Of a stretch of DNA of 64,000 bases, positions 12,185-47,135 are shown one piece after another (position 1 is the stretch's first letter; the number at the start of each line of letters is the position of its first letter). The notes under the pieces were generated by a model. That model saw only the letters and a program-made list of their open reading frames with translations. It was not told the DNA's origin and ran no database searches. Source of the stretch: Fuerstiella sp. (GTDB taxonomy: Bacteria; Planctomycetota; Planctomycetia; Planctomycetales; Planctomycetaceae). Where the stretch lies: the NCBI GenBank assembly GCA_022447225.1, contig JAKVAZ010000006.1, positions 682,001 through 746,000 of the forward strand, written 5' to 3'. Position numbers and translations under genes: made by a program.

Positions 12185-12242
12185 TTCGGTCAGGCCGCGT
12201 TTGTTCGATTTGCCCGGGGCAGTAACGTTCCCGCGGGACTTT

Positions 12243-28111: not shown

Positions 28112-29404
28112 TCATACGTCCATCAATCGTTCGGTGGAGTCACCAAACCGATCCAGATGGATGCCGTATCTGTCGAGCATCGAAAGGTAGAGATTACACA
28201 TCTGTCTGTCCGGCCTGCCCAGATAATCAAGAACCCGACCGCCCTGAAGCTGCCCGCCGGCGCCCCCCAGCAGCACGACAGGCAGTTGCGTGGCATCATG
28301 ACCTCCGGTCATCATGCTGGAACAGTACATCAACATGGAATTGTCCAGCGCGGTACGCTCACCTTCCTGAATGGCATCCAGCCTTTCTGCGATATAGCCA
28401 AACTGTTCCAGCATGAACTGATTGACTTTCAGCCATTTAGCATTGTTACGATGCGAGAGTTCATGGTGTCCGATTTCGACCCCCAGGTGCGGAAACTGAA
28501 GAGCACTGTGATCGTTGTTAAGTTTCAGTGTACAAACGCGAGTCGTGTCGGTTTGAAACGCCAGGACCAGAATGTCACACATCAGGCGCATGTGCTCCAC
28601 AATTGTCTGTGGAATTCCTTCCGGAGGTCTCGGCATGTTGGGTTTATCGAGCGTCGGCCGCCACCCCTGCAACTCACCTCTGCGACCGGCCTGTTCAATA
28701 CGCTTTTCCACTTCACGCACTGAGTTAAGGTACTCGTCGAGTTTACGCCGGTCGATGGAACTGATTTGCTGACGAAACCCTTTCGCTTCGGTGAGTACCG
28801 CATCGAGCACGCTCCTTTGCCCGCGCTGCACCTCATCCTTGAACAACTGATCGAATGCGAGTGCCGGATAGATTTCCAGAGGAGTCGGAGCGGTTGGAGA
28901 GCTCCAGGAAATATGAGAGCTGTAGATCATTGAATAGTCTTTGTGGATCCCCGGATTTGATCTTTCGCATCCAAGAACCAGACTTGGCACCTTAGTTGAG
29001 TGTCCGTAACGCTGAGCAATCAGCTGATCGAAGCTGGTGCCCGAACGAATCTCCCCGCCCGACGAAAGCGGTGCCCCGGAAAGCAGATTGCCGGTTTGTG
29101 AACTGTGAATCCCCCCTTTCAGGGCTTCGGCATTGTACAGTCCCCGAATGAACAGCAGCTTTTCTCGAAAACCGTTCAGTGGTGTGAGTACCTGGCCAAG
29201 CTCCATCTGAGTTCCCTGGCCACTGGCTGTCCACTCATTCTTCGTAAACCCGTTGCCGGAAAACAGCACACCCAGACGAATCGGTGCCTGACTGGCGGAA
29301 CCGGTGGCTTCGTCTCCCCACACCGAACGTGATTCCATCCACGGCAACGCCATGCTGACACCCGTTCCGCGCAGAAACGTTCGACGAGAGAAGCGATGTA
29401 CCAT
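28112..29404 (-). CDS. DUF1552 Tat-exported protein
   Basis: About 430 residues of the DUF1552 family, always next to DUF1592-type cytochromes in planctomycetes. The start has a Tat-like twin arginine (FSRRTFLRGTG) and a hydrophobic helix ending near PWMES. Conserved blocks visible are LGVLFSGNGF, GLYNAEALKG, LSGAPLSSGGEIRSGTSFDQLIAQ and YCSSMMTGGHDATQLPVVLLGG. Function unproven, thought to pair with the cytochrome in a periplasmic redox step. The ATG at 29404 is picked by GGAG nine bases upstream. The cytochrome gene stop lies 67 bp upstream, so the two form an operon. Confidence 0.92.
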   Translation of the reverse strand: MVHRFSRRTFLRGTGVSMALPWMESRSVWGDEATGSASQAPIRLGVLFSGNGFTKNEWTASGQGTQMELGQVLTPLNGFREKLLFIRGLYNAEALKGGIHSSQTGNLLSGAPLSSGGEIRSGTSFDQLIAQRYGHSTKVPSLVLGCERSNPGIHKDYSMIYSSHISWSSPTAPTPLEIYPALAFDQLFKDEVQRGQRSVLDAVLTEAKGFRQQISSIDRRKLDEYLNSVREVEKRIEQAGRRGELQGWRPTLDKPNMPRPPEGIPQTIVEHMRLMCDILVLAFQTDTTRVCTLKLNNDHSALQFPHLGVEIGHHELSHRNNAKWLKVNQFMLEQFGYIAERLDAIQEGERTALDNSMLMYCSSMMTGGHDATQLPVVLLGGAGGQLQGGRVLDYLGRPDRQMCNLYLSMLDRYGIHLDRFGDSTERLMDV

Positions 29405-29471
29405 GGGAATTACTCCAGTTGGCAACCCAGATTTGTGTGTGACAGGCCGGGCAAAGCCTGACCACATTCGG

Positions 29472-32400
29472 CTATCGATTATACGACATACCCCGAATTC
29501 TGCGAAATTGATCACTCAAAACGATCGTTTTCACAGCGACGGAGACTCGATAGTCGTTTTTCCGGAGCTTCCGCTGCATTTTTTCAAGTAACGGCTCGTC
29601 AGAAAGCTGCACTTCCCGACCGAGCGCATAGCCCAGAAACTTTCGACAGAACTGATAAACAAACGTGTTGCGACGCCGGTTAAGCAGATAATCCCGTAGT
29701 CCGGAAAGCCCCTGGATTGAAGTCCCGTCAGGCAGAGTGGTCCGGACATCGATCAATGCGTCAGTACCGCGTCGCCGACCGACGGTATCGAATTTCTCCA
29801 GGGCAAATCCGAACGGGTCGATACGAACATGACACTTGGCGCAGGCCGGATCACTACTGTGCTGCTCAATCAACTGACGCTCGGTCAAACCCTCCGGAAC
29901 AGTCGCAGCAAGCTGCGGAACATTCTTTGGCGGACGTGGCAGTTTCTCACCGAGCAACACTTCACTGACCCAATTGCCGCGCAGAATCGGACTGGTGCGT
30001 GCCGCACCCGAATGCTTCGCGAGTGTCACTGCCATCCCCAGAATTCCGCCACGTCCGTACTTGTGCATCCCATCGACACGGCGCCACGCCGAACCTTCAA
30101 CTTGCGGAATCCCGTAGAACCGGGCCAGCCGTTCGTTCACAAAAGTGTGATCTGCTTCGAGCAGACTTAACAGCGAACCGTCGTTTCGGAACAAATCGGT
30201 AAAAAACAGAATCGATTCTTCATGCAGATCCCCGCGAATATCGAGAAATTCGGGAAAATATTTCTCGCTTTTTCTGCCGAGCGATCCAAATTGATAGGTA
30301 TCCATCCACTGACAGGCAAACTCCGTCGCCAGCCCCCTTACACGAGCATCCGAAAGCATGCGAGTCGTCTGCCGCAGCAATTCAGCGTGGGTCTTGCCGG
30401 AAGCTGAAGATGTGTCTGTATTACCCGGAGTATCGATAGTTTGAGGACTCCGGACTAGCTGTCCTTTTCTCGCCGCTTCCCGCAACTTCATATCGGGCAT
30501 CGACGACCACAGGAAATAGCTGAGTCGGTTGGCGAGTTCCCATTCTGAGACTTCAGTGGTCCCTGAGCCCGCCGGTACGTTTTCGAACCGGTACAAAAAC
30601 GGGGACGCAACGAACACCCGGGCCAGTGTCAGCCGAAACGCTTCGTCATGTGAAAGGTCCTGCCGGCGCAGCTGATGATACAGTTCACGCAGTCTGTCGA
30701 CTTCCACGTCTGTCAACGGACGACGCCATGCGCGGCCGGCAAAGTCGATGAGCGCATCAATCTGGACTGACTCGTGACGGACCAGTGTCTGCCGGAACTC
30801 AGCAGCGCGTTTCACTAACGGCGCATGCATTGGTTTAAACAAATTGTATCGGGCCTTAAAGTCCGGAGCCTCGTTCCCGGCCAGCACTTCAAGAACCAAT
30901 TCCATCGCATCCAGTCGCATCAGCGGACTGTGGCTGACATAGAGCAGTTCTTCCCACAGTCGATCAAGCCGGGCAATCTGTTCCTCATCGAGCATCAGCC
31001 GTACAAGGTGATTATCTTCGCGGTGAAACAGTGTCATCGTGAGAATTTCATCCACGGGCACAATCTGGGTATAACAAAGTGCTGCCGGGAACACGCTGCG
31101 GTAGTCGTCCATGGCTGTTTCAATCCGCCGACGGGCAGTACTGTTATCACTGACAAGAATTGCTCCGCTGAAGGAAACATTCCGGTCACGCCCTGCGACC
31201 AGAACACCCGTCTTTGTGAACTCTGTGTCAACTTCGCAGGTCACCAGTCCGGACCTGATTGATGGTGCATCTCCGACGGAATGCCTGAAAGGCAAAACCT
31301 GTACAGATCCTTCAAGTCCCGTTTCCTGCTCCAGTACGGCCGTCGTGACAAATTCGCGGCCGGTTGCCAACTCAACCGGAAGACGAAACCTGACCACCGA
31401 CGGTGCCTGAACACAGATAGAGGCAGTATCGATCGCCCTTCCGTCGGGATGGCTGCCGAACATCCCGGGGTCGAGACCGGTCTGGGTCAGAGACTTCAGA
31501 TAGATATCTGCCTGCCCTTGGACGACAAGTCTCGGCTGCTGAAATACAACGAAGTCGTGGTCATTCCCGTCTCCTGCATCGGTGACCACCAGTGAGATCA
31601 CCAATTCTTCTTCATCCGGATTCGCAGGGTTCGACGTTTCCGATATCTCAAACGACAGACGTATATTCTGCTGTGTGACCAATGGATTGACAGGTTGCAT
31701 CCATCGTGCCGGAGCCCCCTTCTTTCCATACAGCCCAACCGGACCAAACGTCCACAGTCCCTCCTGCCAACCGACGATCTCAGCGACAAGTGCTTCGGCA
31801 TCCTCGGTCCCTGAACCACGCCAGTGAGAACGAAGTTTGTCCAGAATGAGTGAGGACTTCGATTCTGTCAGACTCGACCAGAGCGTGTTGAGATACCTGG
31901 CATTCAGACCGCGCCGTCCGGCGACCGTTGCGATACTCCGCTTCCCTGTCGTGATTGCTGTCCGCTCATCAAGCGTCGCCGCAAGATATTTCTCGAGTGG
32001 CGGGCTCCCCGCCTGTCCAAGACTGAAACGAAGATTACTCTGGAAGTCCCCAAGTTTCTCCGCGGAAACGAATTGGCTGTAAAACTCCCGAATCTGTGTC
32101 AGAATTTCGTTCCTCCAGTCGTCCCGACTTGAATGACGGGAGAACCGAAATCCGTCCGGGAGCAGCACGGCATGTGCAGCGATTTCTGTGCCGGCATCAA
32201 AATACTTCTGGAGCATCGCTGGGGACATCACCATCGCGATTCCCGTATTGGTAAACCCTTCGCCCGCCGCACTGTTGGTCGGAAAATCTCGGGCGGGATT
32301 TAAGTCGACGCCCGTCAGATCAAGAGTCGTGTACCTGTATTCCGCGTTCGTTAGCCGCCTCAGCACCACACGTCCCGGATCACCGGCACCGGCCCGTGCT

Positions 32401-32741
32401 TCGGTGCGAAGATAACCTTCAATCCAGCCTCGCAGCTTCATTTTTTCCTGAACGGAAGGCTGAGTGGAACCGTCGGGAGGCATCTCACCGTTATCGAGCA
32501 TTTCCACAATCCGCAGCCACGTCTCGGGGGATCGCCGCACGTCCGTCAGCTTCCCGAACTGCTCCAGATCCAACTCCCCTTCGCGCTGTCTGGCAGAGTG
32601 ACAGTCCAGACAGAATCGTTGCATCAGAGGGCGAACTTCACTTTGGTAGCGTTCAGCGAGCGACCTGAATGACAAACTCTCTTCGCCGGCGGCAAATGAC
32701 GTTACCAGAAAAAGGCAAACCGCACTGTACCGCAGCACCAT
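29472..32741 (-). CDS. DUF1587/1595/1592/1588/1585 cytochrome-type protein
   Basis: About 1089 residues. A signal peptide (LRYSAVCLFLVTSFAAGE) precedes a class I cytochrome head (CLDCH at about 45) and then the full set of planctomycete modules: DUF1587 (RRLTNAEYRYTTLDL), a long central beta-rich region, DUF1595 (GRAWRRPLTDVE), DUF1592 (ELANRLSYFLWSSMPD), DUF1588 with a second heme site CAKCH near the C-terminus, and DUF1585 (FCRKFLGYALGREVQLSD). Length is in the family range. It is transcribed just before the DUF1552 gene. The ATG at 32741 gives the signal peptide; upstream ATGs lie in a poor signal context. Confidence 0.92.
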   Translation of the reverse strand: MVLRYSAVCLFLVTSFAAGEESLSFRSLAERYQSEVRPLMQRFCLDCHSARQREGELDLEQFGKLTDVRRSPETWLRIVEMLDNGEMPPDGSTQPSVQEKMKLRGWIEGYLRTEARAGAGDPGRVVLRRLTNAEYRYTTLDLTGVDLNPARDFPTNSAAGEGFTNTGIAMVMSPAMLQKYFDAGTEIAAHAVLLPDGFRFSRHSSRDDWRNEILTQIREFYSQFVSAEKLGDFQSNLRFSLGQAGSPPLEKYLAATLDERTAITTGKRSIATVAGRRGLNARYLNTLWSSLTESKSSLILDKLRSHWRGSGTEDAEALVAEIVGWQEGLWTFGPVGLYGKKGAPARWMQPVNPLVTQQNIRLSFEISETSNPANPDEEELVISLVVTDAGDGNDHDFVVFQQPRLVVQGQADIYLKSLTQTGLDPGMFGSHPDGRAIDTASICVQAPSVVRFRLPVELATGREFVTTAVLEQETGLEGSVQVLPFRHSVGDAPSIRSGLVTCEVDTEFTKTGVLVAGRDRNVSFSGAILVSDNSTARRRIETAMDDYRSVFPAALCYTQIVPVDEILTMTLFHREDNHLVRLMLDEEQIARLDRLWEELLYVSHSPLMRLDAMELVLEVLAGNEAPDFKARYNLFKPMHAPLVKRAAEFRQTLVRHESVQIDALIDFAGRAWRRPLTDVEVDRLRELYHQLRRQDLSHDEAFRLTLARVFVASPFLYRFENVPAGSGTTEVSEWELANRLSYFLWSSMPDMKLREAARKGQLVRSPQTIDTPGNTDTSSASGKTHAELLRQTTRMLSDARVRGLATEFACQWMDTYQFGSLGRKSEKYFPEFLDIRGDLHEESILFFTDLFRNDGSLLSLLEADHTFVNERLARFYGIPQVEGSAWRRVDGMHKYGRGGILGMAVTLAKHSGAARTSPILRGNWVSEVLLGEKLPRPPKNVPQLAATVPEGLTERQLIEQHSSDPACAKCHVRIDPFGFALEKFDTVGRRRGTDALIDVRTTLPDGTSIQGLSGLRDYLLNRRRNTFVYQFCRKFLGYALGREVQLSDEPLLEKMQRKLRKNDYRVSVAVKTIVLSDQFRRIRGMSYNR

Positions 32742-33623
32742 GTGGAAATGAGGTATGACTTTGCAGGGGAGACACATATTTACTTCCGGCAATCTGCAAT
32801 GTATTTGTCGTGCACGTTTGCCTTACTCATTTATCGGGACCAAAAATGCTAACTGTCTGAATACACATGATCAACCGGTTTATCAGTTCCACACACTCAA
32901 CATAGTAATTGAGTCAATCGCGAGTCGGTTCGGTGCCCGCTCGGTGAGTCCGGATACCTGTCCTCCTGCGACTTGCCGAAGATTCCTGTATAGACACTGA
33001 GGTCACAGCGAACAACGTGGGCAAAGAGACCAGCGATCTGTACGAATCGACAGGAAGACACAGAGGAACTCGTGAACCAAATGTTTTGGAATCGAGTTCA
33101 GTTTCTGAAACTTCAGTTTAAGCATAACGTTTGGACTCTTTCAGTCCGGACAAACTACTGACTGTCCGTTCCGCGAGAATCCTGCGTTTTCTGTGCAGTA
33201 ATTCGGTCTTCGCTTTCCCGTTTCAAAGACCTGCTTCCGGCGTTCGCTGATCGGCCGCCCGGAAAAACAAAAGAGGTGTACAGGAGCTGATTCAGAAGTT
33301 GATGAGATTACGGTTGCTGAATTGAAAACCTGACCGGCATCCGTGAAAGACCGTGGGAAATTTCCCGTCGAGATGTGAGAATCCCCCCGGTCTCATCGTG
33401 TAAACTCAGAAAGACATAGAACTCCGCTCATCAGATTGATCATACTATCTGCTGCACCACGCTGATGTCTGTACCGTCTCGGCCGTTTCCCGTCAGCGAT
33501 GATAAGGTGCTGCCAATATCCGAATGAAAAATCTGAAACACGGATTTCAGAAGAATCAGCAGCCGAGTGGTCTGTTGATGTTTGGGCGACATTCTGCCTG
33601 AGGTTCGAAAGCGATTCAATTTG
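32742..33623. other. Long divergent intergenic region
   Basis: About 880 bp between divergent genes. I find no coding frame with family features. A perfect 12-bp palindrome GGGAAATTTCCC is at 33355-33366. The region must hold the promoters of both neighbours. Nothing else is supportable. Confidence 0.45.
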
Positions 33624-36095
33624 ATGTTTCCTCTGACTCAGGCTGCACGAATACCGGGTCGACCGGAGTATCTCTTATTGGCGTGTCTGATATTCCTGAC
33701 ACGGTCCGGTGTGACCTGTGGCAGTGATGTTCAGGTCAACGTAGGCATCAGCGATCACCAGCGCATGCAGCGAGGGAAATGGGGGCTGATGCAGGCAGCG
33801 TTTGCCAACTCATCAGACACCGACAGGGAAGTCCTGGTCGTTGTTGTTCCACCATCGAGCAGGGGACTGCAGTACGGTCGGCAGGTTGTGATTCCGGCAG
33901 GATGCCATCGTACCTGTCAGTGGCCCGTGTTAATGACGGATTCCGATGCACCAGTGTTTAATTTCGAGTATCTGGTGTTTGAAGACCCGGGTGGTTCAGG
34001 TGAAATTCAGCGAGTTTCCGACGAAGAAGTGGTCCGCAGTTTTACAGTGATCAATCCGGAATCCCGGAATGGGACCGCCGTCGGTTATCGCGGGCTGCTG
34101 ACTTCTTTCAATGAAAGTCCGCGAGACCGTCACGGACTCGAGACCCTCGCAAATGTCCTGCGCAATGAAGCCGGTCAGGAAAGGATGGAACTCACCATCT
34201 CCGCGAAGGATCTGGACGGTTATCCCGAAGCTCTGGAAAGTCTCGATCAACTTCTGATCACATCACAGACTTTGCATGACTTTCCGGAGGCGTGTGACGC
34301 TGTTCGTGTGTGGGTTCAGCGCGGCGGTCGAATGTGGCTGTTTCTCGATCAAACCGGCATGAAGACTGCTCATGCACTGCTGGCGGACACGTTACCGCTG
34401 ACACGAATTGATGAAACATCTACGAATGTTGTGAAGATGAAAATCAATAAGTCCGAGTCAAAACAACGATATCCGGAACGCGAACTCACTCGGGAATTTT
34501 CTGAGCCGGTCAGGCAGGTACGGGTCATTGCCGGCAGCGGTCGTACACTCTGGTCCGTCGGTGACTGGCCGGCCGTCATTGAAGTTCCGTTCGGAAACGG
34601 CACCGTCTTTGTGACCACCATTTCTCCCGAAGCATTTGTACAGATGGATGGCGACCAAAGGTCATTACCCTGTGCCCGTCAGATTGCGGATCGAATGTTT
34701 CGGGATTTGAAAAAGGATTCACCGGTCAGCGAACAGCGGCTGAGTTCGGCAGCAGCCGGATCGATCGGATATGAGGTTCCTTCTCGTGCATTCGCGGCCA
34801 CCGTCATGCTGGGGTTTGTCGCGCTGCTGACTGTGGCCGGAACCGCAGCCATCTGGAAATCCCGACCGGCGTGGCTGTTGTGGGCAATCCCGCTTCTGGC
34901 ACTGTTTTGTACTGTTCCGGCGGTCCGGGTTGGTGCTCGTTCGCGAAATGTCGCTCCGTCAACCGCAATTCAGCAGCTGTTCACATCTGTGGTTGAGGGC
35001 CAGACAACTCTGGCCGCCGACGGTGTCATGTCTGTCTATCATCCGACACCTTCTGCTGTTCATGCGAAGATGAAGGATTTCGCGCTGCTGGTACCGGAGC
35101 ACACCAATTCTGAAAACTACTACCGACGTATGGTGTGGACAGATCGCGGCGAATCGGAATGGCGAAATCTGCGACAGGCCGTGGGCGTTCGCAATTACCA
35201 CATCCGATCGATGAAACGACTGGATCAACCCCCCATGCTCAAAATGACGCTTGACCAGGACGGTCTTTCGGGACAGATTGATCATTCTGACGCCCTGAGT
35301 GCCTCTGACATGATCCTCGCCGGACTGTCGCCTGACCGAATGTCGGCTCACATGCAGGCCGACCGAAACTTTCGGGTGTCTCCCGGTAATGCACTCGCTG
35401 CCACCGAGTTTGTAACCGGGACCATCCTCACGGATACCCAGAAACGCCGTGCTTCGGTTTATAAGGATTTGTTTCGAACGGCGGACCGGACGACGTATCC
35501 GGATCGGCTGTCGCTGCTGTACTGGTCTGATCTTGTGAATCCTTCGATCAGACTGGGTGAAGAAGTAACGCGCCGGAACGGTTCTGTTCTGGTGGCCCTG
35601 CCGGTCGATCTTCAGCCACCGGCAGTCAACACAGATTTCACGATCCCGGCTGCGTTGCTGCCGTACCAAACAGTCTTTGACGATCAGGGAGGGTTAAGTC
35701 AGGCCTACAGCAACCCGCATCGGGAGTGGAGGCAAAGAGAAGTCGCCGGTGTTACGCTGCTTGAATTTAAAGTTCCGGAGGTCTGTCGGCCATTCCATGC
35801 AACAGGGGGTACGCTCGTCATTCGTCTGAATGCCGGTTCACGTTCGGTAATACTCAGCATGGGATCTCGTGATCATCCTGCACTCATCCGGACATTCAAC
35901 AGTCCTGCCGGACTCTATCCACTGGCATTGTCACCGGATCACCTGAATTCAATTGTCAAAACCGGAAGCGTTTATCTTCGAATGGATGTCAGCGAAACGG
36001 ACTCTTCTGATTCTTTTGAAAGTACACGGGACCGGGACGACTACTGGAAAGTTGATCGAATGATGCTGACTCTGAACGGCGTTCGAAAGGAATAA
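33624..36095 (+). CDS. Exported two-TM protein, GldG/DUF4350-like, of an ABC cluster
   Basis: About 823 residues. A signal-like N-terminus (LLLACLIFLTRSGVTCGS) opens an extracytoplasmic part with a beta-sandwich-like region and then a domain where ESLDQLLITSQTLHD and WVQRGGRMWLFLDQ recall the GldG/DUF4350 fold that often accompanies ABC exporters. Two membrane helices at about 388-440 (FAATVMLGFVALLTVAG and LLWAIPLLALFCTVP) and a second soluble domain of about 350 residues follow. It directly precedes the ABC ATPase and permease (165 bp), so it is probably their partner. The function of the cluster is unknown. Start at ATG 33624 is by signal peptide; there is no good ribosome site. Confidence 0.65.
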   Translation: MFPLTQAARIPGRPEYLLLACLIFLTRSGVTCGSDVQVNVGISDHQRMQRGKWGLMQAAFANSSDTDREVLVVVVPPSSRGLQYGRQVVIPAGCHRTCQWPVLMTDSDAPVFNFEYLVFEDPGGSGEIQRVSDEEVVRSFTVINPESRNGTAVGYRGLLTSFNESPRDRHGLETLANVLRNEAGQERMELTISAKDLDGYPEALESLDQLLITSQTLHDFPEACDAVRVWVQRGGRMWLFLDQTGMKTAHALLADTLPLTRIDETSTNVVKMKINKSESKQRYPERELTREFSEPVRQVRVIAGSGRTLWSVGDWPAVIEVPFGNGTVFVTTISPEAFVQMDGDQRSLPCARQIADRMFRDLKKDSPVSEQRLSSAAAGSIGYEVPSRAFAATVMLGFVALLTVAGTAAIWKSRPAWLLWAIPLLALFCTVPAVRVGARSRNVAPSTAIQQLFTSVVEGQTTLAADGVMSVYHPTPSAVHAKMKDFALLVPEHTNSENYYRRMVWTDRGESEWRNLRQAVGVRNYHIRSMKRLDQPPMLKMTLDQDGLSGQIDHSDALSASDMILAGLSPDRMSAHMQADRNFRVSPGNALAATEFVTGTILTDTQKRRASVYKDLFRTADRTTYPDRLSLLYWSDLVNPSIRLGEEVTRRNGSVLVALPVDLQPPAVNTDFTIPAALLPYQTVFDDQGGLSQAYSNPHREWRQREVAGVTLLEFKVPEVCRPFHATGGTLVIRLNAGSRSVILSMGSRDHPALIRTFNSPAGLYPLALSPDHLNSIVKTGSVYLRMDVSETDSSDSFESTRDRDDYWKVDRMMLTLNGVRKE

Positions 36096-36101
36096 TCCGT
36101 C

Positions 36102-36124
36102 CTGGCGGCCTCAGTCCGCCAGGC
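36102..36124. repeat. Short intercistronic hairpin
   Basis: 8-bp perfect stem CCTGGCGG/CCGCCAGG with a 7-base loop, seven bases after the stop of the GldG-like gene and before the ABC ATPase. No T run. It may act as an attenuator or RNA-stabilising stem. Confidence 0.6.
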
Positions 36125-36260
36125 AACATTCACTTGAGAAGAAGTGAATTCCCCGGACAGCCCTGGACCGGATCTGCTGGAAGCTCAGGACCGAAATCCA
36201 CGCAGAATGGCTCGTCGTTTTGCAGCACGCCCCCGGATAAATCACGGAAAGGAAAATTTA

Positions 36261-37271
36261 GTGAGTAGTGAACCGAATCCTGTTGTCAACATCCAAAACC
36301 TGACCAAACGGTTTGGTGATTTCGTGGCTGTTGATCAGTTGAACCTCTCGCTCGATAAAGGCGACATCCTTGGCTTCATCGGACATAACGGAGCAGGAAA
36401 GACCACAACGATTCGGGTCCTTGTCGGTCTCACTCGCCCCACTTCAGGGACGGCTCATATCGCCGGAGCCGACTGTGCCCGGGAAGCTCAGAAAGTGCGA
36501 CGACTGGTGGGTTACATGCCCGACCGGTTCGCCTCGTACGACAACATGCGCGTCACCGAATATCTTGACTTCTTCGGTGCAGCGTTCGGAATTTCCACCA
36601 GACAGCGACGACTGCGGATTGCTGAAGTGCTGGAACTGACAAACGCCACATGGATGCAGGATCGGTATGTGGAAGACCTGAGTCACGGAATGCAGCAGCG
36701 TGTCGGAATCGCTCGCACCCTGCTGCACAACCCGGAGGTGCTGATCCTGGACGAGCCGGCAAACGGACTTGATCCGACGGCCCGGATCGAAATGCGGGAA
36801 ATTCTGCTGAGACTGGCAGAAGAAGGCCGCACACTCATTGTCACCAGCCACATCCTGCCCGAGTTGGCAAGGATTTGTGATCGCGTGGCAATTCTGGCCG
36901 GCGGACAGCTGAAGGCATTTGGAACACTGCAGGAAGTCAGCCGCGAACTGTCGCCCCGACGTACAATGGAAATCGAACTCCTGGACGCCGGTCAGGTTCC
37001 GTCAGTAGCCGCACAGGTTCGATCTGCACTGGAGGATCGTGGTGAAGTCACGCCGTCCGAAACAGAAGCAGTCGTGAGGTTCCGAACCGCCGTATCGGAT
37101 GATCAGTTGTCTCTCCTGCTGCAGCAACTCATCCGGAATGGCACACGAATTTCTCAGTTTCGTGAAGTGGCGGGAGATCTTGAGGACATCTTTATTAGTG
37201 TGACTCAGCAGGCCGGTGCATCTCAGGCCGGAGAATCGACGTGTGTGGAAACGACGGAGCAAAAGTCATGA
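36261..37271 (+). CDS. ABC transporter ATP-binding protein
   Basis: A 336-residue ATPase subunit. Walker A GHNGAGKTT at 41-49, Q-loop-like VGYMPDR, the signature LSHGMQQR, Walker B VLILDEPANGLDP and the H-loop TSHIL are intact. It is closest to the DrrA/CcmA-type group that powers ABC-2 membrane proteins. The C-terminal ~100 residues are the usual extension of this group. The GTG at 36261 is favoured because GGAAAGGA lies eight bases before it; ATG 36144 would add 39 low-quality residues. The stop overlaps the permease start by four bases (ATGA), a firm sign of translational coupling. Confidence 0.93.
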   Translation: MSSEPNPVVNIQNLTKRFGDFVAVDQLNLSLDKGDILGFIGHNGAGKTTTIRVLVGLTRPTSGTAHIAGADCAREAQKVRRLVGYMPDRFASYDNMRVTEYLDFFGAAFGISTRQRRLRIAEVLELTNATWMQDRYVEDLSHGMQQRVGIARTLLHNPEVLILDEPANGLDPTARIEMREILLRLAEEGRTLIVTSHILPELARICDRVAILAGGQLKAFGTLQEVSRELSPRRTMEIELLDAGQVPSVAAQVRSALEDRGEVTPSETEAVVRFRTAVSDDQLSLLLQQLIRNGTRISQFREVAGDLEDIFISVTQQAGASQAGESTCVETTEQKS

Positions 37272-38935
37272 AAGGCAGCGCTGTCATCATTCGTCGCGAG
37301 TTGCCGTCACTACTCCGCATGAATTACAGTCTGTGGCTGTTTGTTGCTGTCGCACTGACGGTTTCCGCGACCGTTCTGCTGAAATGGCCGTCAACATCCA
37401 CAGCGGATCTGAGTGGCTCTCAGGCACGCGCCGTTTTTCGCGGTCTGGCGTATTCGATGGTCGTCGTTGTCGTGCTCGTCATCCCGGCCCTGCCGGCGAC
37501 CGGACTGATTGGGGAAGTCCGGCGAGGAACCATGGAACTCCTGTTGAACTCACCGCTGCAAAGAACAGAGATTTACTTCGGGAAGCTGATTTCGCTGTTG
37601 GGATTTTCCTGTCTGCTGCTGATGGTCACAGTGCCGCCGATGGCCTGCTGTTATGCCATGGGAGCCCTTTCTTTCACCAGTGACGTGCTGGCGCTTTACG
37701 GATTAACGGGAGTACTCTGCGTGCAGCTGATTGTACTCGGACTCCTGGTTGGAACCATCGCCAGAACGTCCGAAGCCGGGCTGCGCTGGGTATACGGAAC
37801 CACTTTCGGTCTGACGGTCGTTACGACTATCCCCCATTTGTTTCTCCAGGGTGGCAACAGCGTCTTCGCGGAAACAGCCGGTCACCTGCGAAAGCTCTCA
37901 CCGGTCCCGGCTCTGATTCAGCTGGTGGGCGATACCGTCCCCGGAGGAACAGGGGCAATCGAATCAGAGAACCTCATTCTCTCATATATCGTCTCAGCGG
38001 TGCTGCTGAGCATTGCCGGCAGTCTTGTCTGTATTCAGCGAATGAATTTCTCTCTGATGGATCGTTCACGATCTCAGGGACTCATCACGGATGATCGTAC
38101 CGATTCAGTTCGTGCCGCTCGGAAATTTTTGTTCCTGGTGGATCCACAGAAACGCAAGTCAGGAATCCCCTGGTATCTGAATCCATTGATGGTGAAAGAG
38201 TTTCGCAGTCGTCAGTTTGGTCGTCTGCACTGGCTGATGCGGATGGTGGCCGCCTGTGTCGTGTTATCACTGCTGCTGACACTGGCCGCAACAATGGGCA
38301 CGCTGGACTGGGGAGTGGAAAAAGTCGGAGGCATCATGATTGTGGCACAGGCTGCACTGGTCATCTCGCTCACACCGGGACTGTCCTGTGCGATGATTGC
38401 AGGGGAACACGAAGCCGGTGGCTGGGACATGCTGCGCACCACTCCACTGGGAGCCTTCCGGGTTCTGTGGGGAAAACTGCTGAGTGTTTCAGTCACTTTG
38501 CTGCTCGTGCTGTGTGCGTCACTGCCAGGCTACGGAATCATTATGGTGATCAAACCCGTTCTGCAGATTCAGACCACACAGGTTATCATTTCACTGGGAA
38601 TGACTGCGATGGTCGCCATGCTGACCAGTGCAGTCATCAGCAGTTTTTGTAGGTCTACCGCGGCAGCCACCACCGTTGCCTACGGACTGTTGATTCTGCT
38701 GTACGGCGGCTCGATGCTGGTCTGGATTAACCGCGATTCACCCTTTAGTCATGCAATTGTTCAAGGAACATTGTCTGTCAATGCCATGGCCGGAGCACTC
38801 AACGCAATGGAAACGGAGGGATTTCAGATCTACGACGGCCTCTTACACACAACGTGGATGGTCTCCGGCATTATCTGCGGACTGCTGATTCTGGTGCTGT
38901 ATGTCAGGATGTGGAGACTGTGGGAGCCCGACTGA
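37268..38935 (+). CDS. ABC-2 type permease with two similar halves
   Basis: About 555 residues with some twelve hydrophobic segments. Each half opens with a GEVRRGTMELLLNSPLQRTEIYFGK-type or GEHEAGGWDMLRTTPLGAFRVLWGK-type block, the hallmark of ABC-2 subunits, at about residues 80-105 and 375-400. So two membrane modules are fused in one polypeptide, giving a complete transport path with a single ATPase gene. The two halves are diverged. It starts by ATGA overlap with the ATPase gene. The exported substrate is not visible. Confidence 0.88.
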   Translation: MKGSAVIIRRELPSLLRMNYSLWLFVAVALTVSATVLLKWPSTSTADLSGSQARAVFRGLAYSMVVVVVLVIPALPATGLIGEVRRGTMELLLNSPLQRTEIYFGKLISLLGFSCLLLMVTVPPMACCYAMGALSFTSDVLALYGLTGVLCVQLIVLGLLVGTIARTSEAGLRWVYGTTFGLTVVTTIPHLFLQGGNSVFAETAGHLRKLSPVPALIQLVGDTVPGGTGAIESENLILSYIVSAVLLSIAGSLVCIQRMNFSLMDRSRSQGLITDDRTDSVRAARKFLFLVDPQKRKSGIPWYLNPLMVKEFRSRQFGRLHWLMRMVAACVVLSLLLTLAATMGTLDWGVEKVGGIMIVAQAALVISLTPGLSCAMIAGEHEAGGWDMLRTTPLGAFRVLWGKLLSVSVTLLLVLCASLPGYGIIMVIKPVLQIQTTQVIISLGMTAMVAMLTSAVISSFCRSTAAATTVAYGLLILLYGGSMLVWINRDSPFSHAIVQGTLSVNAMAGALNAMETEGFQIYDGLLHTTWMVSGIICGLLILVLYVRMWRLWEPD

Positions 38936-39020
38936 ACTTGCATCCTGATTGTAAATTCCAATCCCGGGTACTCGCACTTTTCTGCAATCTACGGAACCAG
39001 GCCTGAAGACCGATCCCTGA

Positions 39021-40820
39021 ATGAAAATATTTCCACTTACAACAAGACGATTTTACGTGCCTCTGGTTACAGCAGGATGTTGCCTGACATTCTGGTCTGC
39101 CGTTGCGGTTTCTCAGCAATCTGTTGACTTCCAGGACGTTGTGCGGCTTCCCGATATCGTCAGATTCCGTCAGCTGCCGAAGCGGATGTTTCTGGAACCG
39201 AATATCTCAATTCCTGCGGAGACTCTGTTCGTGACGGATGCCAGGCTAAAGCTGTATGAGCGAATACTTGTTTCGCCGCCTGACAACGAGATTCTGATCA
39301 AAGTCATTCGGTCACTGGAGAGAATCCAGAGTGAGGGTCTGGCCGACATCTCACACGCTGCAGAATCATTGCACAAACATCTTTTGAATACCGACCACGA
39401 ACTTGTAAAACAGGCGAGTGCTTCGGCTCTGGCGACAATCGGCCGGGCCGAATCCGCTGCCGACGTGGCTCAGTTATGCGTACCCGAACGCGAAGTCCTT
39501 TGTCTCAAGATCGAACCCACATTTTCCAGCTGGGGGGGAGATGCCCTGAAGTCGACATGGGTGAATCGTGTTGAGAACTCAGAGAAATTTCCAAGGGCGC
39601 TGATCAGACTGGCGTGTGACGGACTTGCTCAGCTGAAGGACATCTCTGCCCTGGAAGCGGTCCGCCGTCTGCTGGAAAACGAAATGACCGACTATTCCGT
39701 CCGATACGCCGCAGCACAGGCACTGGGAACGCTTGATCATCTGCAGTCCGCTGCCCTGGCCGGCAACTACTCCCCGGGAACCGTTCCCGATCGACTACTG
39801 GCTTGTGCGTTACTTGGTCACTGCAGGTCCGATGCAGGATTCGATGCACTTTCCACGTTGTGTGATGACACGTCAAACGCCGTTGCGTCACAGGCATGGG
39901 CCACAATGCTGCGACTGGACCGTCAACGTTTGCTGGAAAAACTTGATCGTGGTGTCCAGCATCCGGACTCGAACATCCGTCTGAATTCCGTTGAGGTCAT
40001 GAGGGAGCTGCCGAGCAGCGCAAGGTGCAACAACCTCGACCGACTGACAGCAGATGTCCACATCGGTGTTCGGAATTCAGCAAGACGGGCACTAAAAATA
40101 CTGGCGGATTCCAGACCCGAATTCAGAGACACAATTCTGCGCAATGCCGGTGATTCTTTGGTCGATACGAACAGTAACTGGCAGCAACTGGAACAATCAC
40201 TGGTACTTTTGGGTCAGCTCCGACATCGCACGAGACAGAACGAATGGCTCAGGCTGCTGGAACACGATCGTCCGGAAATTTTTGTCACCGCCGCATGGCT
40301 GCTGCACATGATGCCTTACCAAGAAATGGCTGACGAAGTCGTCAAAGTGACACTTCGTCGATATGAGATGACTGACAGACCCGGACTTAATGAGCAGCTG
40401 ATTTTTCTGTTTCAACACGCTGGTTTCACAAATTCAAAATCTCTGCAGCCACTTTTCGAGAAGCAGTTCGCCAAGAATTCACCTCGGTTTGAGGTCCGCG
40501 CCGCCGGGTTGTGGGCGCTGGGAAAACTCAACGCCGGCAACGCGGACAAAGTCCTTGCCGGGAAACTGGTGAAACGAATCCGGGATCTCGGTCTCATTCC
40601 TGAAGGCACCATTGTTCGTCGAATGAGCGTGCTGGCCCTGGTCTGGATGGATGCGCGTTCAGCGGTTCCGGAAATGTTCTGGATTCGCAGGGTCGATGGC
40701 CCTCACTCCCTAATCGGTGAAACAGCACGATGGGCCCTCCCGCATTTGGGGGGGGAACAGCTTCCGCCACCGGAATCACTCCGGGTTCCGGTCGACGACT
40801 TTCCGGTGTCGCCATTTTGA
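39021..40820 (+). CDS. Exported HEAT-repeat protein of the ABC cluster
   Basis: A 599-residue protein. A signal peptide (VPLVTAGCCLTFWSAVAVSQQ) precedes a region of HEAT-like helical pairs from about 90 to 550 (for example QASASALATIGRAESAADVAQL, RYAAAQALGTLDHLQSAAL, RNSARRALKILADS, RAAGLWALGKLNAG). Such solenoids bind protein partners; no catalytic motif is seen. It lies 85 bp after the permease on the same strand and is probably the last gene of the cluster. Confidence 0.75.
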   Translation: MKIFPLTTRRFYVPLVTAGCCLTFWSAVAVSQQSVDFQDVVRLPDIVRFRQLPKRMFLEPNISIPAETLFVTDARLKLYERILVSPPDNEILIKVIRSLERIQSEGLADISHAAESLHKHLLNTDHELVKQASASALATIGRAESAADVAQLCVPEREVLCLKIEPTFSSWGGDALKSTWVNRVENSEKFPRALIRLACDGLAQLKDISALEAVRRLLENEMTDYSVRYAAAQALGTLDHLQSAALAGNYSPGTVPDRLLACALLGHCRSDAGFDALSTLCDDTSNAVASQAWATMLRLDRQRLLEKLDRGVQHPDSNIRLNSVEVMRELPSSARCNNLDRLTADVHIGVRNSARRALKILADSRPEFRDTILRNAGDSLVDTNSNWQQLEQSLVLLGQLRHRTRQNEWLRLLEHDRPEIFVTAAWLLHMMPYQEMADEVVKVTLRRYEMTDRPGLNEQLIFLFQHAGFTNSKSLQPLFEKQFAKNSPRFEVRAAGLWALGKLNAGNADKVLAGKLVKRIRDLGLIPEGTIVRRMSVLALVWMDARSAVPEMFWIRRVDGPHSLIGETARWALPHLGGEQLPPPESLRVPVDDFPVSPF

Positions 40821-41306: not shown

Positions 41307-42437
41307 TCATTCACAAATTTTCACCAGAGCTTTCTCAAAATTTTCCGCCGTACGATCAATATGGTTGAGTTTATCCAGCCCGAACAGCCCCACTCGAAAA
41401 GTCCGGAATCCCTCGGGTTCATTACACATCAGGGGGACCCCTCCGGCAATCTGGATTCCTGATGCCGCAAACCGGCTGCCGTTGTGAATGTCAGAATCGT
41501 CAGTGTAGCTGACCACAACCCCGGGTGCCTGGAATCCGTCAGCTGCCACGCTCTTAAATCCTCTGTCGACCAACAACTTTCGAATCCGCGCGCCGAGTAT
41601 CTGCTGCTTTTCTTTGAGGGCATCGAAACCATGCTGAGCCGCCTCCTGCATGACACCGCGAAACATGGTCAGTGCATCGGTGGGCATTGTGGCATGATAG
41701 GCATGTCCGCCTTTTTCATAAGCTTCCATAATTTGCAGCCATTTACCCAGATCACAGGCAAAACTGGTGCTCGTTGTTTCACTGACTCTCCGGCGTGCCA
41801 ATTCACTCATCATGACCAGTGCACAGCACGGAGAACCACTCCAGCCTTTCTGCGGAGCACTGATCAGTACGTCCACTTCCAGTGCCGTCATGTCGATCCA
41901 AAGAGTCCCGGACGCAATGCAGTCGAGAACGAACAATCCTCCCACAGAATGAACGGCCTCACCCACCCGGCGAATATAGTCGTCGGGAAGGATCATCCCG
42001 GCAGAGGTTTCCACATGAGGAGCGAACACCACTTCCGGTCGTTCCTTTTTGATCGTACTCACAACCTCCTCAATCGGTGCCGGTTCGAATTCAGGGGTTT
42101 TACCGTCTTCCATTGCACGAGCGCTCAGCACAAGCGCAGCCGACGGGATCTGGCCCATCTCCAAGATCTGTGTCCAGCGGTAACTAAACCAACCATTGCG
42201 AATCACCAGGCATTTTTTTCCGGTAGCAAACTGTCTGGCCGTTGCTTCCATTCCAAAGGTTCCGCTTCCGGGAACGACGGCGACTGCATTCGCATGGTAA
42301 ACTGTTTTCAATGTCTCTGAGATATCCAGCATCACCTGCTGAAAATTCTGTGACATGTGGTTGAGAGCTCGATCCGTATAGACGACCGAGTATTCCAGCA
42401 ATCCGTGCGGATCCACATCGTCCAGCAAACCAGGCAT
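41307..42437 (-). CDS. Class V aminotransferase (alanine-glyoxylate/serine-pyruvate type)
   Basis: A 376-residue PLP enzyme. The internal aldimine Lys is K197 in SAPQKGWSGSP; the PLP-stacking region GSGTFGMEA (about 57-65) and the Asp that binds the pyridine nitrogen (LDCIAS, D172) are in place, and the VRNGWFSYRW block is typical. The fold is closest to alanine-glyoxylate or serine-pyruvate transaminases. The substrate could be serine, alanine or a phosphonate such as 2-aminoethylphosphonate; no linked gene decides it. The ATG has AAAGGA eight bases upstream. Confidence 0.9.
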   Translation of the reverse strand: MPGLLDDVDPHGLLEYSVVYTDRALNHMSQNFQQVMLDISETLKTVYHANAVAVVPGSGTFGMEATARQFATGKKCLVIRNGWFSYRWTQILEMGQIPSAALVLSARAMEDGKTPEFEPAPIEEVVSTIKKERPEVVFAPHVETSAGMILPDDYIRRVGEAVHSVGGLFVLDCIASGTLWIDMTALEVDVLISAPQKGWSGSPCCALVMMSELARRRVSETTSTSFACDLGKWLQIMEAYEKGGHAYHATMPTDALTMFRGVMQEAAQHGFDALKEKQQILGARIRKLLVDRGFKSVAADGFQAPGVVVSYTDDSDIHNGSRFAASGIQIAGGVPLMCNEPEGFRTFRVGLFGLDKLNHIDRTAENFEKALVKICE

Positions 42438-42865: not shown

Positions 42866-44305
42866 CTAGGCCAGAATCTCACGCACCACATTGCCTTCAA
42901 CGTCGGTAAGACGGAAGTCCCGACCACGATAACGGTAAGTGAGACGACGGTGATCCAGGCCCAGCAGGTGCAGCATTGTGGCATGCAGATCATGCAAATG
43001 AACCTTGCCGTCTATCGCCCGGAAGCCGAATTCGTCCGTCTGTCCGTGCGTAAGTCCTCCCTTTACTCCCCCGCCGGCCAGCCAGGCTGAATACCCCAGG
43101 TGGTTGTGGCCGCGGCCGTAAGTTTCCGGACCGTCTTTACCGACCGAGACATCCTGGTCATAGGAAGTGCGGCCAAACTCACCCGTCCATACAATCAGCG
43201 TCTCATCCAGCATACCACGAGCCTTCAGGTCAGCGATCAGCCCGGCAATCGGTTTATCAACGCCCAGACACTTTGCCCGCAGGCCCTGATGGATGGAACT
43301 GTGATGGTCCCAACCAAGACTGGTGACTTGTACGAACCGCACTCCCGACTGGATAAACCGGCGAGCCAGCAGACAGCGCCGGCCAAACGCATCAGTCGAT
43401 TTGTCACCGATGCCATACAGTTTCTGAATGGACTGAGACTCACTGGACAGGTCCATCAGCTCCGGAGCCTCGCTTTGCATCCGAAAGGCCAGTTCCATGG
43501 ACTCAATCATGCCTTCCAACTGGTTGTCACCGCTATTCTTCAAAGTCAGCGAGCGATTCATCGACTCAATCAGTGCCAGTTGTTCACGTTGCGCGGCCGG
43601 CGGAACATCCGAACGACCCAGATAGCCAATCTTATTGTCACTACGAATTGCCATCGCCTGATGAATGGCCGGCAGGTACGCGCTGCCGAACAGGTGCGGT
43701 CCACCGTTTCCCCCCATGACCGGATTAATCGTGACAAAACCTGGCATATTGCGATTTTCGGTGCCCAGTCCGTAACTGACCCAGGCGCCCATGGACGGAT
43801 GCTGGCCCTGCGTGTAACCGGTGTGCAGTTGCAGATGGGCCGGAGGATGAGCCGGATTGTCGGTATGCATGCCATTCAACAGACAGATGTCATCTACCAG
43901 CTCTCCCGTATGTGGCAGCAGGTCACTCCACCACATTCCGGACTCACCGCGGGGACTGATTCCGGCAACAGGTTTCAGCAACTTGCTGTTCTCCATTCCG
44001 TCGGCCGTCATTCCTTTGGGGCGTTCAAATGGGATCGGCTTGCCGTGCCCATTGACCAAACGCGGCTTGTACTGGAACAGGTCCATTTGTGAAGGACCAC
44101 CAGCCATCAGCAGAAAGATCACATTTTTGGCACGTGCTGCAAAATGCGGTGGCGACACCGCCAGGCTGTTAGCGGCTGGCAGTTCGTTAGTCAGCAACCC
44201 GGTCAGGGCCAGAGAACCAAATCCACAAGCCGACCTGCGCAGAAAGTTGCGACGAGCAAAAGATGGCTGATTGATAGTCGTATTAATGATAGTTTGCCCT
44301 CTCAT
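42866..44305 (-). CDS. DUF1501 Tat-exported protein
   Basis: A 479-residue DUF1501 protein with a sulfatase-like fold. Twin-arginine signal ARRNFLRRSA at about 17-26; mature blocks include FLLMAGGPSQMDLFQYKP, GMHTDNPAHPPA, GYTQGQHPSMGAW and WTGEFGRT, the last near the conserved metal region. Usually paired with DUF1549/DUF1553 cytochromes, as here: the cytochrome gene lies immediately upstream on the same strand with 110 bp between. Role is presumed periplasmic; substrate unknown. AGGGA lies six bases before the ATG. Confidence 0.93.
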   Translation of the reverse strand: MRGQTIINTTINQPSFARRNFLRRSACGFGSLALTGLLTNELPAANSLAVSPPHFAARAKNVIFLLMAGGPSQMDLFQYKPRLVNGHGKPIPFERPKGMTADGMENSKLLKPVAGISPRGESGMWWSDLLPHTGELVDDICLLNGMHTDNPAHPPAHLQLHTGYTQGQHPSMGAWVSYGLGTENRNMPGFVTINPVMGGNGGPHLFGSAYLPAIHQAMAIRSDNKIGYLGRSDVPPAAQREQLALIESMNRSLTLKNSGDNQLEGMIESMELAFRMQSEAPELMDLSSESQSIQKLYGIGDKSTDAFGRRCLLARRFIQSGVRFVQVTSLGWDHHSSIHQGLRAKCLGVDKPIAGLIADLKARGMLDETLIVWTGEFGRTSYDQDVSVGKDGPETYGRGHNHLGYSAWLAGGGVKGGLTHGQTDEFGFRAIDGKVHLHDLHATMLHLLGLDHRRLTYRYRGRDFRLTDVEGNVVREILA

Positions 44306-44415
44306 CGATGGTCCCTGCTGTTGTCGTCGTGGTCGATTCTAACCGTAAATTCGCATGGACCATTTCGTATTCAAAACGGGAATTCTGGATGTCTGTGGTC
44401 CGGAACAGCCCGCTC

Positions 44416-46761
44416 TCAAAACCTCATCAGAAATTCACTGGATGCAAAAATTGCATGGCATAACATTCCCCACGCATCCGTGGCCGACATTCCCTGTTCT
44501 CTGAGCCGATCCAGCGCAGCCAGTGCCTGTTGCACTTCGCGAGCACCTGGAGGCCGACTCATCGTTCGCAGATAGAGCTCTTCGATTTTCTCCTGGTCTG
44601 AAAGCCCGTCGCGATCCAGCACTCGCCTGGCAGCCGCTTTCCCGTGTTCAATCATGAAAGGTGAATTCATCAGATAAAGTGACTGCGTTGGAACAGTCGT
44701 CGCCGGCCGGGCGCCGGTAACCGTCGACGACGCGGCGAAGCCAAACAGGACAAGCCCTTCTGCCCAGGCAGGTGTGCGGCGATAGACCGGCAAATACACA
44801 GAACGCTTCCTGGCGACGTGCGGTGGTGGTGGTGGTTCCCCCTGCAGTATTGGAAATTCCCTGATCAGGCCCGACTGCCAGACGGCCTGAGGCAGCGCGG
44901 GGCCACCGCGCGTCGTGTCCAGCTCTCCACTCACCAGCAGGACCGTATCGCGAATTGCTTCCGCCTCCAGACGCCGTCGATTCATCCGCCACAACAGCCG
45001 GTTTTCCGGGTCGACGGACTGAGTATCGGTATTCGATCCGGTCACGGAAGCCATACGGTATGTGCGACTGAGTAACAGTTCGCGAATCAGTTGCTTGACT
45101 GACCAGCCCTGCTGCATGAACCGCTGCGCCAGGTAATCCAGAAGTTCCGGATGAGATGCCCTGGCGCCCCGAATACCAAAGTTGTCCGGCGTTGTTACCA
45201 GTCCCGCCCCGAAAACATGGTGCCAGATGCGATTGACGGCAACCCGCGCAGTCAACGCGCAGGTCACCTCCTGCGGATCGGTCATTACTCGGGCAAGCTG
45301 CAGCCGACCGCTGGCCCCCTCTTGCGGGATCCAGGGTCGCTTTTCACTGAGCAATACCTGAATCAGTCCACGTGGAACTTCGTCACCCAGTCGGAAAGCG
45401 TTTCCTCGTATCGTAATTCGAGCGTTGGTCGCACTGACTTCCTTCGCCCCAAATATATAGGGCCGTTCAGGACCATTTGCCTTTTTGAATTCCTCAGATT
45501 CGTCTTCAATAGCTTTCATGGCAATCTGAAATTCACGACGATCGGCATCCGATTCGGGCAGTGGCACCCGAACCGTGTCACTGAGAGTCCTGGAGTTACC
45601 TTTAAATCCGGTCAGCACTTCCAGGTTCTGAAAGATACCGGCCATGGCATAGTAGTCACGCTGCGAGACAGGATCGAACTTGTGGTCATGGCATCTCGCG
45701 CACTGCATGGTCAGGCCCAGAAAAGCCTGACCCACTTTGCCGACCTGGATGTCGACGACGTCCCACCGCAATTGCGCCTTAAACATATTGACGGTCTGAA
45801 TGGGTCCCTGCGTAAGAAATGCGGTCGCCACCAATTGCTCAGAGCGTTGTCGGTCATCTTTGGCCGGCAGCAGGTCGCCGGCGATCTGTTCACGCAGGAA
45901 CCGATCGAAGGGCTTGTCTTTGTTAAACGCAGCGATGACGTAGTCACGGTATCTCCAGGCGCTGGTTTCCGGCACCAGGCGATCGTCACCGAGCGTGTCG
46001 GCGTACAGAGTGACATCCAGCCAGTGCCGCCCCCAGCGGTCTCCAAACGCGGACGACGCGAGCAATTGGTCGACAACCGATTCGTAAGCGTAATGTGATT
46101 CGTCGCGGACAAATTTCTGAATCTGTTCGGGTGCGGGCGGCAGGCCGGTCAAATCGAAAGACAAACGTCTCAGCAGTGCGTACCGATCAGCATCAACGGT
46201 CGGACGCATTCCGTTCGCTTCCAGTCGCTTCAGTATGAAGCGATCGACATCGCAATTCGGCCAGGCTTCATCCGTAACCTGAGGAATGACCGGTTCCGAC
46301 AGCGGAAGAAAGGCCCAGTGACGGCGGCCCGCTTCAAGATCAATCCCTTTCGCTTCGTGTGGTGTCGCTGCCTCGTGCCTCGGGTCCGGTGCACCACTGC
46401 GAATCCATTTTTCAAAGTCACTCAGCACCTCATTGGATAACCTTCCCTTGGGTGGCATCTCCAGACCGTCATAGCGCATAGCCTCCATCAGCAGGCTCGC
46501 TTCAACGTTACCCGGTACGACGGCCGGACCCGAATCTCCTCCCTGACGGACACCAGTGCGGCTGTCCAGCAGCAACGCCCCCTGAAGCTTGCCGGTTTTC
46601 TGTGCCTCCGCAGAGTGGCACTCATAACAGTGTTGAACAAGGACCGGTCGTATTCTGGTCTCAAAGAAGTCGAACTCAGTGTCATCGCCCGAATCTTCGG
46701 CACGCACCGACAGCACAGAAACCCACAGCAGGCAAAAAAGAATGACCATTTTCCGCCACAT
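44416..46761 (-). CDS. DUF1549/DUF1553 cytochrome-type protein (PSCyt/PSD1)
   Basis: About 781 residues. Signal peptide VILFCLLWVSVLSVRAE, a cytochrome head with CYECH at about 38 and the GLEMPPKG loop, a DUF1549 domain (about 140-350: LRRLSFDLTGLPPAP, HWLDVTLYADT) with a second CARCHDHKFDP site, and a DUF1553 domain (about 480-780: ARVAVNRIWHHVFGAGLV, NRRRLEAEAIRD, FGFAASST). It is shorter than many relatives because the region between the two domains is compact. Start ATG 46761 is set by GGGAG five bases before; upstream in-frame ATGs would not give a signal peptide. Confidence 0.93.
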   Translation of the reverse strand: MWRKMVILFCLLWVSVLSVRAEDSGDDTEFDFFETRIRPVLVQHCYECHSAEAQKTGKLQGALLLDSRTGVRQGGDSGPAVVPGNVEASLLMEAMRYDGLEMPPKGRLSNEVLSDFEKWIRSGAPDPRHEAATPHEAKGIDLEAGRRHWAFLPLSEPVIPQVTDEAWPNCDVDRFILKRLEANGMRPTVDADRYALLRRLSFDLTGLPPAPEQIQKFVRDESHYAYESVVDQLLASSAFGDRWGRHWLDVTLYADTLGDDRLVPETSAWRYRDYVIAAFNKDKPFDRFLREQIAGDLLPAKDDRQRSEQLVATAFLTQGPIQTVNMFKAQLRWDVVDIQVGKVGQAFLGLTMQCARCHDHKFDPVSQRDYYAMAGIFQNLEVLTGFKGNSRTLSDTVRVPLPESDADRREFQIAMKAIEDESEEFKKANGPERPYIFGAKEVSATNARITIRGNAFRLGDEVPRGLIQVLLSEKRPWIPQEGASGRLQLARVMTDPQEVTCALTARVAVNRIWHHVFGAGLVTTPDNFGIRGARASHPELLDYLAQRFMQQGWSVKQLIRELLLSRTYRMASVTGSNTDTQSVDPENRLLWRMNRRRLEAEAIRDTVLLVSGELDTTRGGPALPQAVWQSGLIREFPILQGEPPPPPHVARKRSVYLPVYRRTPAWAEGLVLFGFAASSTVTGARPATTVPTQSLYLMNSPFMIEHGKAAARRVLDRDGLSDQEKIEELYLRTMSRPPGAREVQQALAALDRLREQGMSATDAWGMLCHAIFASSEFLMRF

Positions 46762-47135
46762 AGAAACTCCCATTGGTGAAGCCGACGTACTGATGTCAGT
46801 ATAACGACTCTGCTTCCGATTCGCTGCAATTCGCTGTGCTGGACCGACACTGCCAAAACACGCCTGAGTTTCCGAAATGGGATCGCGGGTACTCATGGAG
46901 CGTGCAATTCTCGATACGGCGTAAAACATTGTCCCCAAATGACGGTTTAAATTTGGAAATCGCTCGGTCGTCAGATGCTGACAATTCTATGGTGCTGTTT
47001 GTCACTAATTCCAGATGTATTCGGGTCCGGGTTCTCGACAGTACAACTGTCCCGAATTTGGGTTTGGCCGGTCACGGTCGGAATCCGAACATCGACGGGA
47101 ACCTGACCAGTTGGAGTGATTTTACCGCACTGTAT
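46762..47135. other. Intergenic region
   Basis: About 370 bp between two minus-strand genes. No supported gene or repeat. Confidence 0.4.

Follow-up and report, generated by a model that had tools for sequence, protein, structure and literature searches.

The described systems closest to the locus analyzed here pair an ATP-binding cassette (ABC) ATPase and an ABC-2 permease with further proteins. GldA, GldF, and GldG of the gliding bacterium Flavobacterium, with a counterpart locus in planctomycetes, comprise an ABC ATPase, an ABC-2 permease, and a membrane-anchored partner. NosDFY, which serves the maturation of nitrous oxide reductase, is reported to work by conformational coupling, and ABC-2 permeases are commonly exporters. 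In Fuerstiella sp., we describe a module of four genes, with products called P1 to P4, at positions 33624–40820 of a 64,000-nucleotide window (the whole stretch of DNA analyzed) of contig JAKVAZ010000006.1 in assembly GCA_022447225.1. The module is a conserved variant of the known ABC-2 machines that have a periplasmic partner. The envelopes of planctomycetes are unusual, and few machines dedicated to them are known. Literature searches on planctomycete Gld proteins and gliding, on GldG with HEAT proteins, and on ABC-2/HEAT clusters listed no description of this module. It is well bounded, it includes two families without assigned function, the fold predicted for P1 is common to gliding, glycosylation, and ciliary-transport proteins, and it offers a concrete target for gene knockouts. 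That fold belongs to the GIFT domain, named after GldG and intraflagellar transport (IFT), for which sugar binding has been proposed (PMC7226087; PMC10191852). In the literature, OST48/Wbp1 is counted among the GIFT/GATase1-like domains.

Gene order and co-occurrence of the module

The four genes are neighboring open reading frames (ORFs) on the same (+) strand. P1 (33624–36095, 823 amino acids), characterized from the ORF list, a family alignment of 39 sequences, a predicted model, and hydropathy, is followed by P2, an ABC ATPase of the GldA/DrrA type (36261–37271), P3, a 555-amino acid permease of two homologous ABC-2 halves (37268–38935), and P4, a 599-amino acid solenoid of HEAT repeats whose hydrophobic N-terminus is signal-like (39021–40820). 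For P2, a GTG start at 36261 (336 amino acids) is likelier than the GTG at 36144 (375 amino acids) because a ribosome-site-like GGAAAGG, recognized by eye, precedes the former. With this start, 165 nucleotides separate P1 from P2, the P3 ATG lies inside an ATGA on the P2 stop codon (37271), and a gap of 85 nucleotides separates P3 from P4. Promoter- or terminator-like signals at the module did not rise above those of shuffled sequences, and co-transcription of the four genes is therefore something that we infer.

The module is conserved across the class and also occurs in other classes of the same phylum. The P1 profile matched 107 of the 170 genomes of the order, and 40 loci (20 near and 20 distant) were taken by hand from the P1 matches. 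The full order P1-P2-P3-P4 on one strand was present at 23 of these, including one with a second P4 and one with P3 in two frames. Five others encode P1-P2-P3 (L033, L044, L045, L049, and L050, all except L044 near a contig end), six have P1 alone as judged by profile (L037, L039, L043, L046, L047, and L055, with L046 and L047 cut), and three have P1-P4 pairs (L053, L054, and L057). A P2 piece lies at the contig end in L051, L059 has no neighboring P2, and L070 has the rearranged order P3-P1-P2-P4. The search was also seeded with P3, using one genome per species for 84,980 species and keeping the best 80 of 196 relatives; the titles of these 80 loci are planctomycete, save three labeled only 'bacterium' (L111, L120, and L123). 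The P1- and P3-seeded sets overlap in genomes, and a few genomes occur twice among the 80 loci. If at least 4.2 kb upstream and at least 2.3 kb downstream of P3 were available, the locus was considered testable. Of 45 such loci, 35 encode P1-P2-P3-P4, counting L089, which has a second P4, and L127, where P1 occupies two frames, bearing out the original prediction of a four-gene unit with an ATGA overlap and the conservation of its order in planctomycetes, which had been proposed as a check. Slot by slot, the testable P3-seeded cases had P1 in 50 of 56 (anywhere on the same strand), P2 in 61 of 67, and P4 in 57 of 61. A second full module is present in the window's own genome (G000:C13:34532-41532, L052), with a P1 that is 27% identical.

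Outside the class, we followed up the seven strongest P3 matches among 292 genomes drawn from the phylum (G461, G545, G471, G487, and G403, all below 1e-180; G416, 5e-79; G315, 6e-43). The order is kept at six of the seven loci (L168–L173), with P4 in two pieces in L169 and with P1 and P4 scoring 41 and 39 bits in L173. At the seventh (L174, from G315), P2 and P3 were found by profile; the upstream P1 candidate, an 801-amino acid protein that is hydrophobic at its start and again in a central stretch, scored 13.1 bits only, and the downstream P4 candidate was undetected by profile and had no Pfam match. Weaker P3-like permeases elsewhere (1e-12 to 1e-31) were treated as general ABC-2 relatives.

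In the sampled genomes, the module is present or absent as a set. Among 198 genomes of the class that are at least 90% complete, and with cut-offs of our own choosing (1e-60 for P3, 1e-20 for P1, and 1e-30 for P4), the three profiles each matched 46 genomes, and the three lists were identical when compared by eye. This scoring used the best first-look candidates per genome only, and the genes of G250 and G278 are in pieces across contigs. Members are retained even where they are unlinked. In G125, about 40 kb separate P1 from P3-P4, and in G013 P1 is on a different contig; P4 is more than 3 Mb distant in G191 and on a separate contig in G248. This retention argues for a functional tie over mere neighborhood. 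Some genomes encode P1-P4 pairs beyond the number of P3 proteins. The matches to P1, P3, and P4 number 4, 2, and 4 in G134 and 2, 1, and 2 in both G106 and G298, leaving two surplus pairs in G134 and one in each of the others, with the surplus P1 and P4 adjacent. The fetched pair loci of G106 (L054) and G134 (L057) have no adjacent ABC genes, and full modules are found elsewhere in these genomes (L178 and L177, respectively). In G298, for which match coordinates alone were considered, P1-P3-P4 are ordered on C367 with about 1.1 kb into which a P2 would fit, and a P1-P4 pair is located on C258. L053 (G112) is a further such pair. Because surplus adjacent P1 and P4 genes occur without neighboring ABC genes, the two proteins may form a pair that uses a shared ABC core.

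Properties of the four proteins

P2 matched the Pfam family ABC_tran (3.1e-30) and has intact Walker A (GHNGAGKT), signature (LSHG), Walker B (VLILDEP), and H-loop (TSH) motifs. Its best NCBIfam model was drrA (1.1e-71; 241.6 bits, below the cut-off of 312.45), followed by GldA (1.6e-62; 211.7 bits, below the equivalog cut-off of 402.6), and the DrrA C-terminal domain in Pfam was matched weakly. Among solved structures, the top sequence matches of P2 were ABCA lipid transporters, and NosF was also matched (2.1e-42). P3 matched ABC2_membrane_2 in two stretches (2e-14) and has 11 hydrophobic stretches. Its halves are homologous (hhalign E-value of 3e-11 over 235 columns), confirming the earlier suggestion that the permease is a fusion of two ABC-2 halves. 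The best NCBIfam model for P3 was GldF (48.1 bits, below the equivalog cut-off of 288.5), and the only solved permease matched by its sequence was NosY, weakly (E-value of 0.035). With an ATPase bearing intact motifs and an ABC-2 permease, P2 and P3 have the components of an ABC-2 transporter. Assignment to a defense system was rejected, as the 13 PADLOC matches for P2 resemble generic ATPase matches and P1, P3, and P4 had none.

P1 has a signal-peptide-like N-terminus, a beta-sandwich, a GATase1/GIFT-like domain, a transmembrane hairpin, and a C-terminal beta-rich part, as judged in part from a predicted model with a predicted local distance difference test score (pLDDT) of 84.8 and a predicted template modeling score of 0.83. 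The N-terminus was recognized by eye; hydropathy scanning gave no signal there in the window's P1, and the model has a low-confidence helix at residues 14–27. The hairpin (residues 387–440, encoded at 34782–34943 on the + strand), identified by hydropathy and by model helices at 388–411 and 417–441, is central, between two lobes and directly after the family motif IGYxIPSR. Because Lys and Arg are found in the short loop that joins its helices, both lobes presumably face the periplasm.

Residues ~138–365 of P1 (34035–34718, + strand) are predicted to adopt a GATase1/GIFT-like fold. In fold comparisons with the model, residues ~150–365 of this domain matched domains of GH42 galactosidase enzymes (Z up to 15.2), ThuA-like 4jqs (Z 14.9), the GIFT domains of IFT52 (5fms_B, Z 13.5, root-mean-square deviation 3.2 over 188; 5fmr_A, Z 13.1), the GATase1-like protein 3rht from Planctomyces limnophilus (Z 13.3), and chain 8b6l_N from a human Sec61-TRAP-OST entry (Z 11.8). 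These domain-level matches were used in place of the top Foldseek matches for the whole of P1, which were set aside as long multi-domain superpositions with TM of ~0.1. When solved structures were searched with the P1 profile, two matches came up at E ≤ 10 (0.01 and 1.8), neither of them convincing. Catalysis by class I glutamine amidotransferases needs a Cys/His triad. Among the alignment columns filled in at least 25 of the 39 rows, none had either residue in at least half of the sequences, so that P1 does not show the conserved catalytic residues of this class. An amidotransferase triad is accordingly unlikely in the P1 domain, and a binding role would be likelier than amidotransferase activity.

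P4 is a HEAT-repeat solenoid, matching HEAT_2 in Pfam above the cut-off (2.6e-19); its predicted model (pLDDT 91.9) is a solenoid with structural matches of the PP2A PR65 type. The single hydrophobic stretch (residues 12–32) is near the N-terminus, and the protein is presumably periplasmic. Paralogues of P4 were also found with no P1 or P2 nearby (L183 and L184 in G117, L185 in G016, and L186 in G006). A weak 68-bit P3-like match is located near the lone P4 in L185, the lone P4 in L183 adjoins an FG-GAP/UnbV_ASPIC protein, and a DUF1501-like gene, recognized by eye, stands before the one in L184.

Comparison with Gld, Nos, and GIFT proteins

P1 had originally been called GldG-like, with structure prediction of the 823-residue protein proposed as a check for a GldG domain. 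In fold, the description holds, as the modeled domain shares with GldG the kind of fold called GIFT and matches IFT52; in sequence, it does not. P1 had no match to PF09822 at E ≤ 1, and among its 39 relatives only one matched this family (ABC_transp_aux; E-value of 0.069) and three matched DUF4350 weakly (0.035 at best). The NCBIfam GldG model matched none of the 39 family members at E ≤ 1, and hhalign of P1 against five planctomycete GldFG proteins returned a probability of 0.2%, a weak test with an effective sequence number (Neff) of 2. After these three comparisons, P1 was rejected as a GldG by sequence. The module further differs from GldAFG in the central hairpin and C-terminal beta-rich part of P1, in the fusion of two halves in P3, and in the added HEAT protein, which the original prediction had correctly placed outside the Gld set. 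A separate GldFG gene also coexists with it: at L187 in the window's genome, a canonical GldF-GldG fusion is encoded with an ABC ATPase gene on one side and a DUF4340 gene on the other, and the P1, P3, and P4 profiles found no member of the module there. Because this genome has a separate GldA/GldFG/DUF4340 locus, the module is not the Gld system itself.

The module resembles NosDFY in the match of P2 to NosF and the weak match of P3 to NosY, but differs from it in the fused permease and in the GIFT-like and HEAT partners, and sequence comparison of P1 and P4 with NosD in Pfam gave no match at E ≤ 1. With the GIFT/GATase1-like domains of IFT52, ThuA, and GH42 enzymes, P1 would share its fold; unlike in those proteins, the P1 domain is part of a bacterial membrane protein whose gene lies beside those of an ABC transporter. 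Class I amidotransferases differ from P1 in their Cys and His residues, which are not conserved in the P1 family.

Proposed mechanism and alternatives

We consider it reasonably probable that the four genes encode a single ATP-driven machine of the cell envelope. A P2 dimer would sit beneath P3, the halves of which would serve as the permease pair, and P1 would be anchored in the inner membrane by its hairpin with two lobes, one of them GIFT-like, in the periplasm. The periplasmic P4 solenoid would dock on P1 as a scaffold, and ATP cycling by P2/P3 would move P1-P4, which would in turn act on a component of the envelope or put it together. Coupling of conformational changes to the periplasm, as reported for NosDFY, may be likelier than bulk export. 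A role in surface assembly or export, as first suggested for this locus, may also apply. The weakest step is the nature of the substrate, for which a glycan- or sugar-bearing component is a tentative guess, made because GIFT domains have been proposed to bind sugars. The added P1-P4 pairs of some genomes may share one ABC core. A more speculative extension is that a shared two-half ABC-2 core drives exchangeable P1-P4 adaptor pairs that place different glycan-bearing or surface components, which would make the module an undescribed class of planctomycete machine; a bacterial GIFT domain with a helical-repeat scaffold would then recall, purely as an analogy, IFT52 and the TPR proteins that partner it in intraflagellar transport.

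Several observations weigh against a single machine of this kind. Ten of the 45 testable P3-seeded loci deviate from the order: L088, L090, and L101 are without P1, L099 is without P4, L133 and L157 are without P2, L113 and L116 have P3-P4 only, L118 has P3 only, and L114 is rearranged. Lone P4 paralogues, two in G117 and others in G016 and G006, weaken a strict one-to-one relation of P1 and P4, and P1-P4 pairs that lack ABC genes may just as well work without a transporter. A match between a predicted fold and known structures does not prove sugar binding. The neighboring families are generic and have no fixed place (DUF1501 at 12 of 41 loci, prepilin-like proteins at 8, and sulfatase-like proteins at 5), and for this reason the neighbors do not name a substrate.

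The alternative that survives best, although we regard it as rather unlikely, is an exporter or flippase in which P3 moves a lipid-linked glycan or a lipid over the inner membrane, the GIFT-like lobe of P1 receives it, and P4 passes it on. The common exporter function of ABC-2 permeases, the ABCA lipid transporters at the top of the P2 structure matches, and the likeness of the P1 domain to galactosidase domains are consistent with such a pathway, but no glycan- or lipid-pathway gene was recognized by eye among the recurrent neighbor clusters, and NosY was the sole solved permease that P3 matched. Efflux of drugs or small molecules by a Drr-type pump and its accessory proteins, suggested by the drrA model and the DrrA C-terminal domain, is improbable: P2 scores below the drrA cut-off, and the presence of P1 and P4 in all 46 genomes with P3 is unexpected for a simple efflux pump. 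We give an equally small chance to P1 and P4 being an envelope pair with a function of its own, to which the ABC genes are merely co-regulated neighbors. The surplus pairs in G106, G134, and G298 and the loci L054 and L057 without ABC genes would suit this explanation, whereas none of the 198 class genomes has P1 and P4 without P3 at the cut-offs used. A planctomycete version of GldAFG doing the same job as the gliding system, to which the GldA and GldF models and the GIFT-like fold point, is the least credible of all, given the distinct Gld locus in the same genome, the presence of PF09822 in each of the 61 genomes of the order that were searched as against the module in 46 of 198 class genomes, the GldA and GldF scores below cut-off, and a GldG not found by sequence.

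Neighboring genes

The module is flanked by genes on the opposite strand, with a DUF1552 gene and a PSCyt/PSD protein on one side (28112–32792, −) and a DUF1501 gene and a PSCyt/PSD1 protein on the other (42866–46938, −). DUF1501 also adjoins P1 in L043, L051, and L057 and lies two genes on in L037. A link between the module and DUF1501/PSD1 gene pairs is not claimed, because every one of 31 genomes contains at least 40 DUF1501 matches. Between the module and its DUF1501 flank, the protein encoded at 41307–42437 (−) had no Pfam match at E ≤ 0.001 and matched 3ke3, the solved structure of a putative serine-pyruvate aminotransferase, with an E-value of 2.2e-153. A tRNA-Gln(TTG) at 12242–12315 (+) was the sole RNA gene found in the window.

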